From: Ignavibacteriales bacterium
GTDB lineage: Bacteria > Bacteroidota > Ignavibacteria > Ignavibacteriales > Ignavibacteriaceae
Reading direction: 5' to 3'
Assembly (NCBI GenBank): GCA_016182615.1
Contig: JACPGF010000082.1
Span: forward strand, 1-39,874
Length of the DNA: 39,874 nucleotides
How positions within the stretch are numbered: the first letter of the stretch is position 1; the number at the start of each line of letters is the position of its first letter. Below are positions 5,052 through 25,680 of the stretch, in pieces. The notes beneath the pieces were generated by a model. That model was given only the letters and a program-made list of their open reading frames with translations. It was not told the origin of the DNA and made no database searches. Made by a program: the position numbers and the translations under genes.

Positions 5052-6842
5052 ATGGCTCAAAATAAAAATGATGATGAAGTAATCGGCAAAGCGTATGATG
5101 CAAAACTCATGCGGCGCTTGCTGCATTATGTAAAACCCTATAAAAAATACGTGGTTCTGGCAATTGTGCTTAACATAATAGTTGCGGCACTTGGCCCTTT
5201 GCGGCCGTACTTAACCAAAATAGCGGTCGATGACCACATTGTCCACAAAAACTATAACGGTTTATTGTGGATTGTACTGGCAATGCTTGCAACGCTTATT
5301 TTCCAGTCCGTTATGCAGTATTTTTTAACCTATTACACGCAGTATCTTGGGCAGCGCACCATACTTGACCTGCGGCGTGAACTGTTTGCACACACGCAAA
5401 AACTTGCAGCCCGTTTTTTTGATAAAACACCCATAGGACGGTTAGTTACCCGTGTAACCAACGATGTTGAATCACTAAATGAATTGTTCTCTTCGGGCAT
5501 CATCATGGTATTCAGTGATGTCTTCATTGTTCTTTGGATACTTGCCTTTATGTTTTACATGGATTGGCAGCTATCCTTGGTTACCCTCTCGGTTATGCCC
5601 GTGTTGATATATGGTACATTTCTTTTCCGCACTAAGGTCAGGGAAGCATTCCGTGATGTCCGCCTGCATCTTGCCCGGCTTAACTCGTTCATGCAGGAAA
5701 ACGTTACGGGCATGTCGGTTGTGCAGATTTTTAATCGTGAAAAGAAAGAATTTAAAACCTTTTCAGGTATTAATGCCGACCACCGCAAAGCTAACATCGA
5801 TTCGATTTTTTACTACGCGGTTTTCTATCCCGGGGTTGAGTTGCTCAGCACGATTGCCATCGGCCTGATAATCTGGTATGGCGGCGGCGAGATTATTCAA
5901 AGCCGCATGCAGCTTGGCGTTTTGTTCGCGTTTTTACAATACACCGAAATGTTCTTCCGTCCCATCCGTGACTTATCGGAAAAATATAACATCATGCAAA
6001 CCGCGATGGCTTCGTCCGAGCGCATATTTAAGCTGCTTGATGACGGCACCATGATAAAGAATCCGGAAAACCCGGTACCAATGGGAAAATTGCAGGGTGA
6101 TATAGAATTTAAAAATGTCTATTTTGCGTATAATGAAAACGATTTTGTCCTGAAAAATATTTCGTTCGGCATTAAACCCGGTCAAACTATCGCTATTGTT
6201 GGTGCAACCGGTGCCGGAAAATCGAGCATTATTAATATACTGACCCGTTTTTACGACATTGGCAACGGCAGTATTACTGTCGATGGTGTTGATATCAGGA
6301 ACATTGATAAAAAAGAACTGCGCGAGCATATTTCCATTGTGCTGCAGGATGTATTTCTCTTTTCAGGCAGTATCCGCTCGAATATTAGCATGAATAATCC
6401 GGCAATTTCCGATGAAAAAATTATCGAAGCTGCAACGCTGGTTGGTGCCGATAAGTTTATCAGGGAGCTGCCAAACAAATATGATGAAGAAGTGAAAGAA
6501 CGCGGTGCAACACTCAGCGTTGGGCAGAAGCAGCTTATTTCTTTCGCGCGTGCGCTGGCTTACGATCCGCAGATATTGATTCTTGATGAGGCTACCTCAA
6601 GCGTGGATACCGAGGCCGAGCAAATGATACAGCGGGCAATTGAGCAATTACTGAAAGGCCGTACTGCAATCGTTATCGCGCACAGGCTTTCTACAATTCA
6701 GAATGCCAATACGATAATAGTGCTGCATAAAGGTGAGATAAAAGAAATGGGAAATCATCAGGAGCTGCTTGCAATGCGCGGCATTTATTACCGCTTGTAT
6801 CAATTGCAATATAAAGATCAGGAAGCGGTAAAAAACGTGTAA
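5052..6842 (+). CDS. ABC transporter, fused permease/ATP-binding half-transporter (subunit 2 of heterodimer)
   Basis: Walker A GATGAGKSS, degenerate signature LSVGQKQL, canonical Walker B ILILDEATSSVD, H-loop AHRLST. Confidence 0.95.
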   Translation: MAQNKNDDEVIGKAYDAKLMRRLLHYVKPYKKYVVLAIVLNIIVAALGPLRPYLTKIAVDDHIVHKNYNGLLWIVLAMLATLIFQSVMQYFLTYYTQYLGQRTILDLRRELFAHTQKLAARFFDKTPIGRLVTRVTNDVESLNELFSSGIIMVFSDVFIVLWILAFMFYMDWQLSLVTLSVMPVLIYGTFLFRTKVREAFRDVRLHLARLNSFMQENVTGMSVVQIFNREKKEFKTFSGINADHRKANIDSIFYYAVFYPGVELLSTIAIGLIIWYGGGEIIQSRMQLGVLFAFLQYTEMFFRPIRDLSEKYNIMQTAMASSERIFKLLDDGTMIKNPENPVPMGKLQGDIEFKNVYFAYNENDFVLKNISFGIKPGQTIAIVGATGAGKSSIINILTRFYDIGNGSITVDGVDIRNIDKKELREHISIVLQDVFLFSGSIRSNISMNNPAISDEKIIEAATLVGADKFIRELPNKYDEEVKERGATLSVGQKQLISFARALAYDPQILILDEATSSVDTEAEQMIQRAIEQLLKGRTAIVIAHRLSTIQNANTIIVLHKGEIKEMGNHQELLAMRGIYYRLYQLQYKDQEAVKNV

Positions 6843-6926
6843 AGCCAACAACTTATGTAAATTAAAGTCGCGTTTATGTGTTTAACTCAAATTAGATGTT
6901 TCAGAAGTATAGCAAAATTTTTATCA

Positions 6927-7120
6927 CCTAACCTCAGACTTTCACGAAGTGATGGATATCCATAGTCTGAGGTTTAAACAGTCAACAAACCACAGGCTTT
7001 AGCCATTAAGTTTTGCTTTTGAAGTTCAAATCAATTTCCAGTGGCTAAAGCCTGTGCTTTTATTTGTTGGGATTCCTCAGACTATGGGTATCCATCACTT
7101 CGTGAAAGTCTGAGGTTAGG
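6927..7120. repeat. Nested inverted-repeat element (outer 46-bp arms; inner GGCTTTAGCC/GGCTAAAGCC stem)
   Basis: Left arm CCTAACCTCAGACTTTCACGAAGTGATGGATATCCATAGTCTGAGG (6927-6972) is the reverse complement of 7075-7120 with one mismatch; inner CACAGGCTTTAGCCA / TGGCTAAAGCCTGTG. Confidence 0.95.
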
Positions 7121-7452
7121 AGATGGAAATTTTTATAGAGATATGCTAAGTAGTTACTAATGCAGACTGTCTTCTTAGCGAGCAGAGGAAAAAAAGACAG
7201 CCATGTAAAATAAGATTATGCACAATAATTCCGGCTCAGAACAGTTCCTGTTATAGACTGTTTTGTGCCGGGAAATGAAAAAACATCTTACAAATAACCG
7301 GCAATGGCGGGTGCTATTTAAAGCAATCCGGCTGCCGGTAGGGTGTAACCAAACACTTGAACAACAATGGCGGAAAGCCGCCCGGATGTAAGGAATCTAT
7401 TAGTTTTGTTGGCTCAAGTGACTTATACAAGAAAAATAATCAGGAGGCGCAA

Positions 7453-8478
7453 TTGGCAAGAAGCCGGTTTATGACGTTAGAACGTCACATTATCGAAGGT
7501 GAGCGCATGCACCCGGAGGCAACGGGTGAACTTTCCCGTTTGTTGTCAGATTTAGCAATCGCTATAAAAATCATCTCGCTTGAAGTTAATAAAGCGGGTA
7601 TAGTTGACATATTGGGTCTGACAGGTGATGAGAATGTTCACGGCGAAAGTGTCCGTAAACTTGATATGTATGCCCATGATATGATGTTCAAGGCAATGGA
7701 TCATGGTGGACATCTTTGTATCATGGCATCGGAAGAAGAAGAAGATATTATTCACATTCCAACCGATTTCGAGATCGGAAGGTATGTGCTGTTATTCGAT
7801 CCGCTTGACGGCTCATCAAATATTGATGCAAACGTCAGCATTGGAACTATATTTTCCATTTACCGCCGCCAGTCACCCGATGGATTACCGGGAACATTGG
7901 AAGACTGCCTGCAGCCGGGATATAAGCAGGTCGCGGCAGGATATGTTGTTTACGGGAGCAGCACCATGCTTGTTTACACCGCGGGTCATGGTGTACACGG
8001 TTTTACGCTTGATCCGTCAATCGGAGAGTTTATTCTCTCTCATCCGGATATTCGCATTCCGCAGAAGGGAAAAATTTACAGCGTTAACGAAGGCAATTAT
8101 AAATACTGGCATCCCGGTCTGAAACAGTACATTAAATTTCTTCAGGAAGAAGATGCACCAAGCAGCCGCCCTTACAGCACCCGCTATATCGGCTCGATGG
8201 TAGCTGATGTACACCGTACGCTATTATATGGCGGCATTTTCATGTACCCGGCGGATAGCCGCAGTCCTAAAGGGAAATTACGCCTGATGTACGAATGTAA
8301 CCCCGTTGCTTTTATCACGGAAGCAGCAGGTGGTATTGCCACAGACGGCAATATGCGCTTGATGGATAAAGTACCGGAGCACCTGCACGAGCGGTCGCCA
8401 ATCTTCATCGGCAGCCCTGATGACGTTAACACATTGCTGCGCTTTTTACGCAGGGCGGAAGAAGCCGGACTGGTGTGA
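7453..8478 (+). CDS. fbp: Fructose-1,6-bisphosphatase, class I (probable TTG start at 7453; ORF track extends to 7357)
   Basis: TLERHIIEGERMHPEATGELSRLL, EVNKAGIVDILG, LLFDPLDGSSNIDANVSIGTIFSIYRR, YIGSMVADVHRTLLYGGIFMYP; AGGAGG at 7442-7447 places a TTG start at 7453. Confidence 0.95.
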   Translation: MARSRFMTLERHIIEGERMHPEATGELSRLLSDLAIAIKIISLEVNKAGIVDILGLTGDENVHGESVRKLDMYAHDMMFKAMDHGGHLCIMASEEEEDIIHIPTDFEIGRYVLLFDPLDGSSNIDANVSIGTIFSIYRRQSPDGLPGTLEDCLQPGYKQVAAGYVVYGSSTMLVYTAGHGVHGFTLDPSIGEFILSHPDIRIPQKGKIYSVNEGNYKYWHPGLKQYIKFLQEEDAPSSRPYSTRYIGSMVADVHRTLLYGGIFMYPADSRSPKGKLRLMYECNPVAFITEAAGGIATDGNMRLMDKVPEHLHERSPIFIGSPDDVNTLLRFLRRAEEAGLV

Positions 8479-19377: not shown

Positions 19378-21147
19378 TTAGTCTTTCCTTTTCCTGAAAC
19401 AGGCCGTCGGTTCTGTTTTCTCAAAATAGACGATGGCATCGAAATCCTGTGCTATTTTTGTTGGATAGAACGCCTCATCCACTGGAGTGGCGCCGATAGA
19501 TCTGAATCCGATATAATCTTGGACTAACCAAGCAAAGGGGCTGTTCGTAAATTTTCTCAGGTCAATAATCAACTGCTCTTTACCAGCATTATGAAGTATC
19601 CATTCAAATGAACCGGGCTGAGGCAGTGAAGTTGAATAGTTATTTATGCCGTTCTTTCCAACGGCAGTATATTTGCCTTCAAAAAAGCCAAATCCAAAAA
19701 CAACCATTTCCTTTCCATACTTTTTATCTAAAAAGAAACCCATTGACCCTGTTTGAAAATTGCTTTTTGCCACATGCCCATTATGTGCCCACAATACTAT
19801 CTTTGCATCAGCACCCGAATGGTTTAATATCCACCCGGTGTTTACCGCCATACTTTCATCGCGGGAGGCAGAGCCCGGAATTTTATTTGTAATACACTGA
19901 ACAACAATTCTCGCATTCTGTATTGCCCAATCGACGGTATCTTTATCAACATACTCTTTGAATGACTTCTCTTTATTTTCCATGATACTCAATACTTCAG
20001 CAGCATAATTCAAAACCGGTTCATAAAGCTTTTTATCCGGTTTTATATTACTCTTCTTTTGTGTGGCATAATAAGCCAACACGCTATCGTAATTACTTTT
20101 TACTTGTTGTACATTGGTAGAATCATATCTGGCTAAAAAATTCAGGACGTTAGCCGCCGCGATATCCGGGGTTTGCATGTCAAAGCCCCAAAATTCAATT
20201 CTCCCTTTTTTGGACCTATTGAATTCCCGCATCCACTCGATCATATCCAAAACTTCCTGCGTGCTCCATGTCCAAAAATAAAGTCCTGCCAAGGCTTCCT
20301 TTGCAATCCCTTTACCATAAAGGATGTAGTCATTAACAGCTTTAGCTTCAGGCATATTTGCTTCGATAGCAAATACGGTAAAGCCGCACTCCTCTGCCAA
20401 GAATTTTGTCATCCGGTGTTTCATCTTAAAAAATTCGCTTGTACCATGAGTTCCCTCTCCCAATGAAACTATTTTTGCATTACCCACCATTTTTTTCAGA
20501 AAATGCAGGTCGCTGTTATCCTGCTTCGGGTCTGCGGAATTAAACATGCGAACATTCGATTGTAACCAGTTTCTTTGTTCACCTGTAAGCGAAAAAACCT
20601 TGGGTGGTATTTGTTCATAAACTTTTCCATCTAATTCTATTTGCAGATTATCAAACCATGCTTTTCCATCTCCTGCTAACAGAACTCCAAAAACAATGTT
20701 TTCGGGGTTTTCATCGATTTTTAACTCAATTGAGTATTTTTGCCAGCCGGTTGTGCCCTTTACGCCACGGTTTTGCATGTTGTCAAAATTTAAGATTCCG
20801 TTTTTGCCATCAACGCGCCACCACAAGCCCGCGAAACCAGTAGTTACAGCTTCGGTTTTTATATATCCCGTGTAACGGAGTGATTTGCCTTTTGCATCCT
20901 CAGTTTTAATTCCAATAGAAGCAACCCCAAAATCGCCCTCAGCATTTTTTTGTATACATAAACTGCTTTTACCCGTGAAAAATACGGCCGTATCAACTGA
21001 AACTTTGTATCCTTCGCCTGCCTGATACCATCCCTTTGCATTTCCTAAAGATGAATAATTCTCAAAATCCAAATTCAAAAACACTTGGGCTTGTATATTG
21101 CTTATAAAAAATGCGAGGAACAGCGAAAAGAATATAAAATTTTTCAT
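19378..21147 (-). CDS. Erythromycin esterase family protein with N-terminal carbohydrate-binding-like domain
   Basis: IVSLGEGTHGTSEFFKMKHRMTKFLAEECGFTVFAIEANMPEA, WTWSTQEVLDMIEWMREFN, WAHNGHVAK motifs; signal peptide. Confidence 0.9.
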   Translation of the reverse strand: MKNFIFFSLFLAFFISNIQAQVFLNLDFENYSSLGNAKGWYQAGEGYKVSVDTAVFFTGKSSLCIQKNAEGDFGVASIGIKTEDAKGKSLRYTGYIKTEAVTTGFAGLWWRVDGKNGILNFDNMQNRGVKGTTGWQKYSIELKIDENPENIVFGVLLAGDGKAWFDNLQIELDGKVYEQIPPKVFSLTGEQRNWLQSNVRMFNSADPKQDNSDLHFLKKMVGNAKIVSLGEGTHGTSEFFKMKHRMTKFLAEECGFTVFAIEANMPEAKAVNDYILYGKGIAKEALAGLYFWTWSTQEVLDMIEWMREFNRSKKGRIEFWGFDMQTPDIAAANVLNFLARYDSTNVQQVKSNYDSVLAYYATQKKSNIKPDKKLYEPVLNYAAEVLSIMENKEKSFKEYVDKDTVDWAIQNARIVVQCITNKIPGSASRDESMAVNTGWILNHSGADAKIVLWAHNGHVAKSNFQTGSMGFFLDKKYGKEMVVFGFGFFEGKYTAVGKNGINNYSTSLPQPGSFEWILHNAGKEQLIIDLRKFTNSPFAWLVQDYIGFRSIGATPVDEAFYPTKIAQDFDAIVYFEKTEPTACFRKRKD

Positions 21148-21384: not shown

Positions 21385-22524
21385 TTAAAATATAATTTCT
21401 TCCTCAGTTTGGGACTTCTGGTCCGATTGTTCATTTGCAACTATAAATCTTGCTCTCGCTAATAGTTCATCAAAAGTGATTATCTCAGGGTTGTATATAT
21501 TTCGCCTGTAAAGTTCAAAAGTGGCAACACTAGTATCTGTAATGAGTTCTTCAGTCCTTCCTATAACTAAAATACCTTTTGGTTGAATTGTATGAATATT
21601 TAACGGGTGTAGAGTTCTATCATTTTGAGTATTTAGAGCAGTCTCTTGCCAAGTCTTGCAATTTACTTGTATTTGACTTACAGCTCCAGATAATTCTGAA
21701 CTTATTAAGCATGCCCCATTACGATAGATAAAAGGTTGACCTTTTTGATAGAAAAGAAGTTTAGTAAACGGTTTTTTTATTTCAACAAGACAAGTGAATT
21801 TCGCAGCAGCTATTGAAGAAAGTAAAAAATCACCCCTCTGAGTTCCTAATCCTGTATAATTAATACCTCCAATGTGTGGTTGATCAGACAAAACTGAATT
21901 GAACTGGTAATTCAACCCAAAACCAAACAACCATTGGTTACTCTGGAAGAATTTCTGCCAATAGGATTCGTCCAATTCCTCATCTGCAAGACTATTTTCG
22001 AACTCAGCCAAGGCTTCACTTCGTTCCTGTTGTATCCTTGCCCGAGATAAACGGGTTACTAAATTAGGGTTATTATCGACTAATTCCTTCCAAATCTCCT
22101 CACCGAAATCCTGTTCAAGAAGCTTCTGAACAAATAACTTTCTGTTTTCTGGAATACTCAAGATTTTACTTGCTTCTTCAACCACAAATTCCCTCTCGCC
22201 TAAAAAAACTCCTTTTTGGCTTAAGCAATATAATTGCTGCAATCCATCAAATAATCTTTTAAGTGGTGTACTTCGAAGATGTATTTTTATTCCATCTCCG
22301 GCTTTTAATCTTGTCAAATCTATCGCTTCAATATCCTCCCACTTATCATTTAGACCCTTTCTTTGGTGAATAATTGTACCACTTAATGTCTCACCTGTCG
22401 ATACTTTTACATCATTGATCTCTGCTCGGAATACTCTTCTAGTAGTTGCAGTCTCATCAATTATCAGTACTTGCTCCACTTTCGCAGAATTATAACTTGT
22501 GCTTCTTGTTGTCAATTTGCTCAT
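21385..22524 (-). CDS. sduA: Shedu-type anti-phage nuclease (DUF4263, SduA-like)
   Basis: C-terminal YWQKFFQSNQWLFGFGLNYQF...GDFLLSSIAAAKFTCLVEIKKP (D...ExK of PD-(D/E)XK), KGILVIGR, ITFDELLARARFIV; SD AGGAAA upstream. Confidence 0.8.
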   Translation of the reverse strand: MSKLTTRSTSYNSAKVEQVLIIDETATTRRVFRAEINDVKVSTGETLSGTIIHQRKGLNDKWEDIEAIDLTRLKAGDGIKIHLRSTPLKRLFDGLQQLYCLSQKGVFLGEREFVVEEASKILSIPENRKLFVQKLLEQDFGEEIWKELVDNNPNLVTRLSRARIQQERSEALAEFENSLADEELDESYWQKFFQSNQWLFGFGLNYQFNSVLSDQPHIGGINYTGLGTQRGDFLLSSIAAAKFTCLVEIKKPFTKLLFYQKGQPFIYRNGACLISSELSGAVSQIQVNCKTWQETALNTQNDRTLHPLNIHTIQPKGILVIGRTEELITDTSVATFELYRRNIYNPEIITFDELLARARFIVANEQSDQKSQTEEEIIF

Positions 22525-22551
22525 ATTTTCACTTTCCTCATTTTTAGCTTC

Positions 22552-22935
22552 CTATAGAAAAAGCAGTCCGGTTGCTCGAAACTTTTTATATGTGTTTGAG
22601 TTTATGTAAAAATTCTTATCAAAACTCACTCTCTCAAGTTTGATTTTTTGTGTACCCTCCAAACCAATTATTGAGCACAAATTCTGTTGCACAGTATCCA
22701 AACAGTCTGGGCAATTACTTAAGAAATATCCTGTAATCAAGCAATTCCCATGTATTTTTTTTATCGAAACTCGCTTCATTACCTCGAATATTGAAAAAAC
22801 ATTTAGGCTTTTAAAGTAGTGCACATCAGGAATACTAATTTCTTCTTTATCCGGTGTTTCCAGTACACATTTTTTTAGAGTCTTTAATTGTTTAGGATTT
22901 AATAAAATATCTCTATCTATAAGATTTTTTGACAT
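22552..22935 (-). CDS. Hypothetical protein with CxxC motif, operonic with the Shedu-like gene
   Basis: 127-aa ORF, strong SD GAGGAGG before ATG, 27 bp upstream of the Shedu start; NCPDCLDTVQQNLC. Confidence 0.75.
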   Translation of the reverse strand: MSKNLIDRDILLNPKQLKTLKKCVLETPDKEEISIPDVHYFKSLNVFSIFEVMKRVSIKKIHGNCLITGYFLSNCPDCLDTVQQNLCSIIGLEGTQKIKLERVSFDKNFYINSNTYKKFRATGLLFL

Positions 22936-22986
22936 TCTCTCGCCTCCTCGGTTGATATTAATTTATTTTGTGGTAGTGCTATCATC

Positions 22987-24357
22987 TTAAGTACTTTCAC
23001 GCTTATCATTCGCCAATAAAATAAACAATCCATGTTTTAGCTCTTCAATTTCTTTAAAAAGATCATTCATTTTTTTCTTATTAACATATATTTGTCCCTT
23101 ATTTTCAAGAAGATTTATTTCATATTTTCTTTCGACATCTTTTTTCTCTTCTGCTTTTTTTTTTTTTTTATTATAACAAATCGTTGCAGTAGTTTCTTTA
23201 GGATATTTATTTTTTTCCTCATTTTCCGTAGAATCGCTTTCCAAGTCATAAGCCAACGAAAAGAAGAATTCTATTCTCTCTTGTTTCTCAAGAAGTGCAA
23301 TATACTTAAGCTTGGGCAACACATTAACAGTATCATAAGTACCCATATAAGGCAAATCAGGATCGAACCGGACAGTAACATCATAAGCAGCACTTCCACC
23401 CGTGTTTTGTATAATAAGGTTAAGGAAGTCATAATTATCTTTATCAGGAGCAATTTTAACGCTAACCGCTGGTTCATTTATTCTTTTCGTTTCCTCGAGG
23501 GAACTTGCACTCGATTTCATGGAACGATATGCAAATATGACTGCAAAAATTGTAAAGATAGCTGCCAATGCGGTAGCTGCGCTACTAACTCTAATAAACC
23601 AATCTGTTGGATATTTATTTGATTCCATGATAAATAGTTGATTAACTAGTGTGACAATCACCGATGCTGCTATAATAGCAGCAATTAAAACATAGTCATT
23701 TTTCTTTTGCATTATTAAATCCCATTGATTGTTTATAAAAATCAAGTAGTGTTTAGGTTTAATATACTTCCTTCTTGTAAGTTTACTGCTGTAATACAAC
23801 GATGGTAGAGCAGTTAAAATTCCAAGTAATATGATCGAAAATTTCATGCCGACTGAATGACGCAGGTAAATGTTGCCGGTTTTATTGAAATATGAAATGA
23901 GCAGAATTAATTGACTAAAAACGAATACACCATAATAGGGTTGCAGAAAATCAGGGATCCAACTTATTATGCCTTTGGGTGATACAGTCGGGTCATAACT
24001 TTCGGGATAAATGTAATCTTCACCAAACACACCAGCCATTTTTCTAATTTTACCATTAACTATTTGATCCCTACGAAAATTATATGCTATTGTATTAACT
24101 TGCCATGCTCCAAAGAAAATTGAAGCCATAGCTATAATAACTGCATAATTGATTTGTTGTTCTTGCATAACAAAAACATAACCATATCCTAAAACTATTG
24201 AACCTAAAAATCCCAAGATTTTCTGAAATGATTGTTCTCTGATACGTTGATTTTCCGCAAATTGAGTGTGCCAATTGACTAATATTGGATATGTGAGATC
24301 CTTTAAACTTCCTTTTTTTTCTTCACTTCCGTCATTCGTAGAGCGATTTAATTCCAT
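22987..24357 (-). CDS. Multi-TM membrane protein with C-terminal cytosolic beta-rich domain
   Basis: Several hydrophobic segments (ILGFLGSIVLGYGYVFVM, YAVIIAMASIFFGAW, GVFVFSQLILLISYF, FSIILLGILTALPSLY, YVLIAAIIAASVIVTLV, AATALAAIFTIFAVIFAY) then NEPAVSVKIAPDKDNYDFLNLIIQNTGGSAAYDVTVRF. Confidence 0.8.
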   Translation of the reverse strand: MELNRSTNDGSEEKKGSLKDLTYPILVNWHTQFAENQRIREQSFQKILGFLGSIVLGYGYVFVMQEQQINYAVIIAMASIFFGAWQVNTIAYNFRRDQIVNGKIRKMAGVFGEDYIYPESYDPTVSPKGIISWIPDFLQPYYGVFVFSQLILLISYFNKTGNIYLRHSVGMKFSIILLGILTALPSLYYSSKLTRRKYIKPKHYLIFINNQWDLIMQKKNDYVLIAAIIAASVIVTLVNQLFIMESNKYPTDWFIRVSSAATALAAIFTIFAVIFAYRSMKSSASSLEETKRINEPAVSVKIAPDKDNYDFLNLIIQNTGGSAAYDVTVRFDPDLPYMGTYDTVNVLPKLKYIALLEKQERIEFFFSLAYDLESDSTENEEKNKYPKETTATICYNKKKKKAEEKKDVERKYEINLLENKGQIYVNKKKMNDLFKEIEELKHGLFILLANDKREST

Positions 24358-24401: not shown

Positions 24402-24767
24402 TTAAAATCTTTTATCGTCCAGAAAACCGTTTGGCGGCTGAAAATTGAATTTTAATATTGTATCCAGGCGGTTTCCTACCACCTCAATACTTTCATGCTT
24501 TAATGAATCTGAAAGCCAGTTTGAGTAATTATTATCTCGTGGGAAATTCTTTAACCGGAGTGTAATTACGTTATAATCTTTAGACATATCTCTATAGAGA
24601 ATCTGATTGCCAGTGATTAGACGCTCACTGCCGCCATTTACACTTAGATAAAAATCCATGTTACACGTTGTTGGTCTTCTATTAGGTATTTGGGCAAACG
24701 CAATACCGTAGAGAAGCTCACAGAATACCAGAATTTTATAACTGCTGATTGATACTTTGCTCAGCAT
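24402..24767 (-). CDS. Hypothetical protein with signal-peptide-like N-terminus
   Basis: ORF MLSKVSISSYKILVFCELLYGIAFAQIPNRRPTTCNMDFYLSV...; ATG at 24767 with GGGAAG upstream. Confidence 0.55.
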   Translation of the reverse strand: MLSKVSISSYKILVFCELLYGIAFAQIPNRRPTTCNMDFYLSVNGGSERLITGNQILYRDMSKDYNVITLRLKNFPRDNNYSNWLSDSLKHESIEVVGNRLDTILKFNFQPPNGFLDDKRF

Positions 24768-24931
24768 CGAATACTTCCCAATAATTAAACTACCTCCCAA
24801 ACGAGCCCTTAATTACTTTTGATAAAACGAGCATTAACTCTTTTATTTTAATATATTAATAAAAACTGAGATAAGAAATACTCATAAACCATGATATTTT
24901 GATTTAAAATTTCAAATCATTGCACGGTGGC

Positions 24932-25510: not shown

Positions 25511-25680
25511 TAGTGGCTAAAGCCTGAGAATTGTGGAATGAAGCTACCCCAGGGTGAACTCTGGGGTTAGGGGATATTTAATATTACCCGCTCGCAGAGC
25601 GGTTGCTATTTATGCCCTAACCCCGGCATTCATGCCGGGGTGTCTTACACCACTGGGATTTTCAGGCTTTAGCCACTGAA
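25511..25680. repeat. Nested palindromic (cloverleaf-like) repeat with TGGCTAAAGCCTGA outer stem and internal hairpins
   Basis: AGTGGCTAAAGCCTGA (25512) pairs with TCAGGCTTTAGCCACT (to 25677); internal CCCCAGggtgaactCTGGGG, CCGCTCgcaGAGCGG, CCCCGGCAttcaTGCCGGGG. Confidence 0.9.

Follow-up and report, generated by a model that had tools for sequence, protein, structure and literature searches.

Shedu nucleases (SduA; PF14082 and PF21407, PDB 8ti8) are reported to act at DNA ends, and in the Zorya and Kiwa systems a membrane sensor is paired with a nuclease (PMC12904381). Recognition of a phage tail component as a defence trigger has a precedent in DSR2 (defence-associated sirtuin 2), where the tail-tube protein is recognised during SPbeta-group infection (PMC11263360). 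Temperate phages themselves carry two further families relevant here: phrog_11802, a group of proteins of unknown function present in the SPbeta-like phages Goe12, Goe13 and Goe14, and the 'putative lysogenic conversion protein' (ORF1) in the Z region of P2-EC53. Here we analyse a three-gene locus in a 39,874-nucleotide stretch of DNA from an Ignavibacteriales bacterium (contig JACPGF010000082.1; hereafter the window). On balance, we favour the reading that two independent defence cassettes share one probable transcription unit: a stand-alone Shedu, and an uncharacterised two-gene, membrane-plus-soluble phage-exclusion module. This reading sets a known nuclease apart from an unstudied cassette of two genes, one that is met in distant phyla both on temperate phages and in defence islands.

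An earlier note on this DNA had described three genes in one tight operon, and their coordinates, spacing and shared strand are confirmed. Three ORFs lie on the minus strand and encode a 456-aa membrane protein (22987-24357), a 127-aa protein (22552-22935) and a 379-aa Shedu nuclease (sduA, 21385-22524). The 456-aa gene is separated from the 127-aa gene by 51 bp, and the 127-aa gene from sduA by 27 bp (22525-22551, minus strand), an interval in which the Shedu start codon is preceded by the Shine-Dalgarno-like GAGGAAAG. A Shine-Dalgarno-like sequence also stands ahead of the 127-aa gene, as the same note had said. A search for minus-strand terminator-like sites between the three genes found none, and we consider a single transcription unit probable. 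Between 21 and 25.5 kb the GC content is lower than in the flanking host genes, and the third-position GC (GC3) of the three genes is likewise below that of the flanking host genes. None of the three proteins found a match in the one genus-mate genome searched (G057); a clean empty site could not be shown there, because gene order around ProC differs.

Pfam, PADLOC and structural alignment agree that the 379-aa protein is, as previously claimed, a Shedu-like (DUF4263) nuclease with a D...ExK core. The PADLOC and PF14082 searches that the earlier note had proposed returned SduA at E=1.1e-62, with many SduA models matching, and SduA_C at E=1.6e-32; SduA_C/DUF4263 scored 113.3 bits against a curated cut-off of 27, and SduA_N (PF21407) matched at E=1.3e-18. 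SduA_N occupies residues 8-104 and the PD-(D/E)XK domain, SduA_C, residues 185-355. The protein aligns end to end (E=6.3e-29, residues 4-362) with PDB 8ti8, which we take to be B. cereus SduA, and its core GDFLL...LVEIKKP falls on DFLY...LIEIKTP of that structure with the catalytic residues conserved; the 8ti9 chain has an alanine in the column of the ExK glutamate. On these matches, we firmly assign the protein to the known Shedu family as an ordinary full-length member that shares its SduA_N plus SduA_C architecture and D...ExK core. The window copy differs from described Shedu in its genomic neighbours only, and there is no sign that these neighbours belong to the system. Shedu would be expected to bind and cut near the ends of invading DNA.

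The other two genes recur together elsewhere. In all 11 distinct loci found, a gene for a protein with two TM helices and an Ig-like domain (2TM-Ig) has a small-gene homologue directly downstream, and the carriers include Ignavibacteria, Paenibacillus, a Bacillus plasmid, SPbeta-like phages and other viral contigs. In the genomes G145, G070 and G113 and on a Bacillus badius plasmid, where the 2TM-Ig protein stands alone, the small gene that follows it encodes 123-135 aa; the loci beyond these four come from Paenibacillus alkalitolerans, two viral contigs, Goe12/13, Goe14 and a third viral contig, in which the pair lies upstream of an aimR-like gene. The two frames overlap in 9 of the 11 loci (gaps of -53 to -4 bp) and are spaced by +17 bp in B. 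badius and +51 bp in the window. Across 346 genomes of the phylum, a profile of the small protein matched exactly G000 and G145, the two with a full-length 2TM-Ig protein, so the 2TM-Ig and small genes form a unit. Weak partial 2TM-Ig matches elsewhere in the phylum (G358, G219, G181 and others) were rejected, as they lie in genomes lacking a small-family match. Judged by its recurrence, the pair is a real conserved unit, named in the searched libraries only as phrog_11802, and our literature search found no paper naming it. Searches of viral contigs with the window's Shedu and 456-aa proteins, and of plasmids with the 127-aa protein, returned no relatives.

The 456-aa protein had been described as a multi-TM protein with a cytosolic beta-rich domain. 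This description is supported, with the correction that the protein is a composite of 4+2 predicted TM segments; charges flanking the two C-terminal segments suggest that the beta domain lies on the cytosolic side. Homologues, profile and AlphaFold model assign the C-terminal part (about residues 215-456; 22987-23715, minus strand) to the 2TM-Ig family, phrog_11802, with two TM helices, an Ig-like beta domain and a conserved C-terminal helix. The C-terminal 242 residues match phrog_11802 at E=1.3e-23, and residues 221-450 match the stand-alone proteins of ~230-260 aa in G145, G070, G113 and the B. badius plasmid. The N-terminal part (about residues 1-214; 23716-24357, minus strand) is an additional 4-TM domain, recognised by TM prediction and a stand-alone relative: residues 24-183 match a 222-aa 4-TM protein in G063 (L013), and the domain is absent from the other 2TM-Ig proteins found. 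The phrog_11802 phage copies are followed by the same small gene; compared with them, the window copy is longer by the N-terminal 4-TM domain, and its two genes are 51 bp apart where the phage genes overlap. The AlphaFold model shows a fairly confident Ig-like domain (residues 298-415) and a C-terminal helix, is of low confidence outside the Ig-like domain and renders the N-terminal 4-TM part poorly; its top Foldseek matches are Ig-like folds and Kir channels.

The usual start codon of the 2TM-Ig family aligns with an internal ATG near residue 215. A second frame at 23713-23725 (minus strand) reads TAATAATG exactly at this ATG, which opens the 2TM-Ig domain, and the position of TAATAATG in the other frame thus points to two genes joined by a small insertion or deletion. 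This suggests that the 456-aa gene represents two ancestral genes merged by an indel, in evolution or in assembly; the finding of the pair holds in either case, and the N-terminal fusion in the window copy is possibly recent. The 4-TM domain has a single stand-alone relative, in G063, and less than 3 kb from it stand genes 75% identical to window 5052-8478 (L021, 9510-10178 and 4541-7368), a curious partial synteny. The SLATT and PD-Lambda-5 membrane defence proteins were considered as relatives and rejected (SLATT_1 at 16.3 bits against a cut-off of 41; PD-Lambda-5_A at E=0.0033 only).

Members of the small family share only about 15-30% pairwise identity. We therefore omitted each of the 11 small proteins in turn, built a profile from the other ten and searched a set of 305 proteins that included decoys. 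The omitted proteins were recovered at E-values from 8e-11 to 2.5e-27, with the best decoys at E=0.16 or worse; the window protein is the weakest member (E=8.4e-11, best decoy E=0.2). By this test the 127-aa ORF is a real gene, and all 11 small proteins belong to one family. The earlier label 'CxxC protein' misleads, as conservation does not extend to the cysteines: the CPDC motif is private to the window copy and absent from 10 of 10 homologues. A redox or zinc role for the CxxC was rejected on the same ground, and a GILT match fell below its cut-off.

AlphaFold models the 127-aa protein as all-beta with an N-terminal helix (pLDDT 82, from a 9-sequence alignment). Foldseek matches of this model, in the PDB and among viral predictions, are mostly to tail-tube, Hcp and tail-terminator proteins (E of 5e-4 to 2e-2 in the PDB and 5e-6 to 2e-3 in the viral library; TM-score mostly 0.4-0.6), and are to be read knowing that tail-tube chains are very common in both libraries. 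A tail-tube match in Pfam and PHROG was sought and not found, and tail genes were absent from the flanks of the pair that were read. We treat the predicted tail-tube/Hcp-like fold as a lead because no sequence profile supports it. Any likeness to phage tail-tube and Hcp proteins would lie in the predicted fold; unlike them, the 127-aa protein has no sequence-family match and is not encoded among tail genes.

The pair occurs in varied surroundings, which also carry non-defence cargo. Just upstream of it in G145 is a gene for a type I restriction R protein (HsdR), and in G113 two GmrSD_N proteins are encoded downstream. In G070, a DUF2326 (ABC-3C-like) gene overlaps the pair at one end and an AlbA_2/RecG-C gene at the other; the surrounding cluster includes an HKD-SNF2 helicase, a type IIG restriction-methylase and a KAP NTPase. 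On one viral contig (L029), which starts at the pair, the pair adjoins a phage integrase. The SPbeta-like phages Goe12-14 carry it shortly upstream of aimR (L031, L032, L088 and L089 compared); at this slot SPBc2 has yopH (annotated as superinfection exclusion B family, SieB), yopI and yopJ, and SPR has other genes. The site upstream of aimR is thus a variable cargo slot. YopI and YopJ of SPBc2 were considered as divergent members of the pair and rejected, as they gave no profile match. Downstream of the pair in G145 (L018, 12017-14051) lie genes for three proteins, of 273 aa (with a metal-binding-like HELAHLYCG motif), 295 aa (weakly similar to DrmA) and 94 aa; they may make up another small defence cassette.

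P2-type phages carry a distant homologue of the 2TM-Ig protein, the P2-EC53 ORF1 product (profile E=5.8e-22). Among 5,426 complete E. coli genomes, 105 contain this Z-region homologue (for example L033, 1247-1939, and L090, 6001-6693), and one copy is part of a P2-like prophage, flanked there by tail-fibre assembly genes on one side and tail-sheath genes on the other. P2-EC53 ORF1 and its R18C counterpart gp24 resemble the pair in occupying a cargo locus of a temperate phage, but differ from it in being single genes: a small partner was sought beside the P2-EC53 and R18C homologues, and none adjoins the copies read.

We propose that the pair may be a phage-exclusion or abortive-infection module. 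The membrane protein, with its two TM helices and cytosolic Ig-like domain, would reside in the inner membrane, where its C-terminal helix would be suited to oligomerise; the all-beta partner, soluble and of predicted tail-tube-like fold, would be co-translated with it. The partner might sense or mimic a phage tail component and so control the membrane protein, which could block DNA entry or damage the membrane. A more specific version holds that a tail-tube mimic encoded by host or prophage serves as a sensor of, or decoy for, tail components, whether incoming or newly made, and triggers the membrane Ig-domain effector, with the cassette swapped between SPbeta-like phages and defence islands and the effector present alone in P2-like phages. 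In all its parts together, this version is speculative and quite unlikely. Unlike DSR2, the pair has no SIR2 domain, and its tail-tube-like protein would come from the module's own small gene; as a sensor or decoy, a tail-tube-like fold found outside tail operons would be unusual. The SPbeta-like phages of B. subtilis offer a laboratory-ready representative, so that a role of the pair in excluding other phages is directly testable.

The pair could alternatively be a toxin-antitoxin or prophage-maintenance module, in which a membrane toxin is held by a small neutraliser and there is no direct anti-phage role. Tight coupling, a small soluble partner and spread on prophages, a plasmid and islands would all fit such a module. 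Toxin-antitoxin modules are, however, more often antitoxin-first, and at every locus of the pair the membrane gene precedes the small one; the P2-type relatives stand alone without a partner, and the contexts of the pair are rich in defence genes. We consider this alternative unlikely, and retain an exclusion module as the better account of the pair.

Whether the pair belongs with Shedu is a separate matter, and the earlier note had proposed that all three genes form one system. In such an extended Shedu system, the membrane and 127-aa proteins would serve as sensor or localiser for the nuclease, and the shared strand, the short gaps of 51 and 27 bp and the lack of any terminator-like site between the genes are in its favour, as are membrane sensor plus nuclease precedents such as Zorya and Kiwa (PMC12904381). 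The distribution of the genes argues against it. Shedu occurs in 26 of the 346 phylum genomes (loci L052-L080), and a scan with both partner profiles and the N-terminal domain took in about 30 Shedu loci and a further two from the order; in most cases the sequence extended some 1.5 kb to either side, which covers immediate neighbours and not distant ones. Within about 1.5 kb, the partner families stand beside Shedu in the window only. Conversely, no Shedu was seen among the read neighbours of the other 10 pair loci, and G145 has the pair, while a Shedu search of its whole genome gave no match. The window Shedu, moreover, is of the ordinary full-length type. The partnership claimed earlier is thus sustained for the membrane and 127-aa proteins, which go together at every locus found, and not for Shedu, since among the loci surveyed all three families co-occur in the window alone.

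With the two partner genes belonging to a separate module, the three genes look like neighbours and not like one new system; the three-gene system as first proposed is decidedly improbable. Defence-gene clustering is the best account of the adjacency, and Shedu and the pair would be neighbours through such clustering in a defence island. A functional link specific to this one operon is possible because of the 27-bp gap and likely co-transcription. An entry-blocking or cell-killing module would complement a DNA-end nuclease; no evidence here links the two.

A last alternative, that the 2TM-Ig protein is an inward-rectifier (KirBac) potassium channel, was raised because Kir channels likewise combine two TM helices with a cytosolic Ig-like domain and KirBac/Kir structures recur among the Foldseek matches of the 456-aa model, but it was rejected as scarcely credible, given that these matches have TM-scores <0.3, that the TxGYG selectivity filter motif is found in 0 of 11 members, and that the inter-TM loop, at 11-22 residues in most members, leaves no room for a pore helix and filter.

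The flanks of the operon hold three further features. Upstream of the 456-aa gene, at a distance of 45 bp, lies an ORF at 24402-24800 (minus strand) whose start is probably the ATG at 24767 and whose N-terminus is signal-peptide-like; it has two weak relatives among 160 genomes of the order. A palindromic, imperfectly repeated cluster (CCCCGGCATGAATGCCGGGG, with nearby GGCTAAAGCC-like stretches) at 25540-25680, between the operon and proC, could be a REP-like element. Adjoining Shedu on the other side, 19378-21147 encodes a member of the erythromycin-esterase family (PF05139, E=3.7e-65) whose N-terminus resembles a signal peptide.
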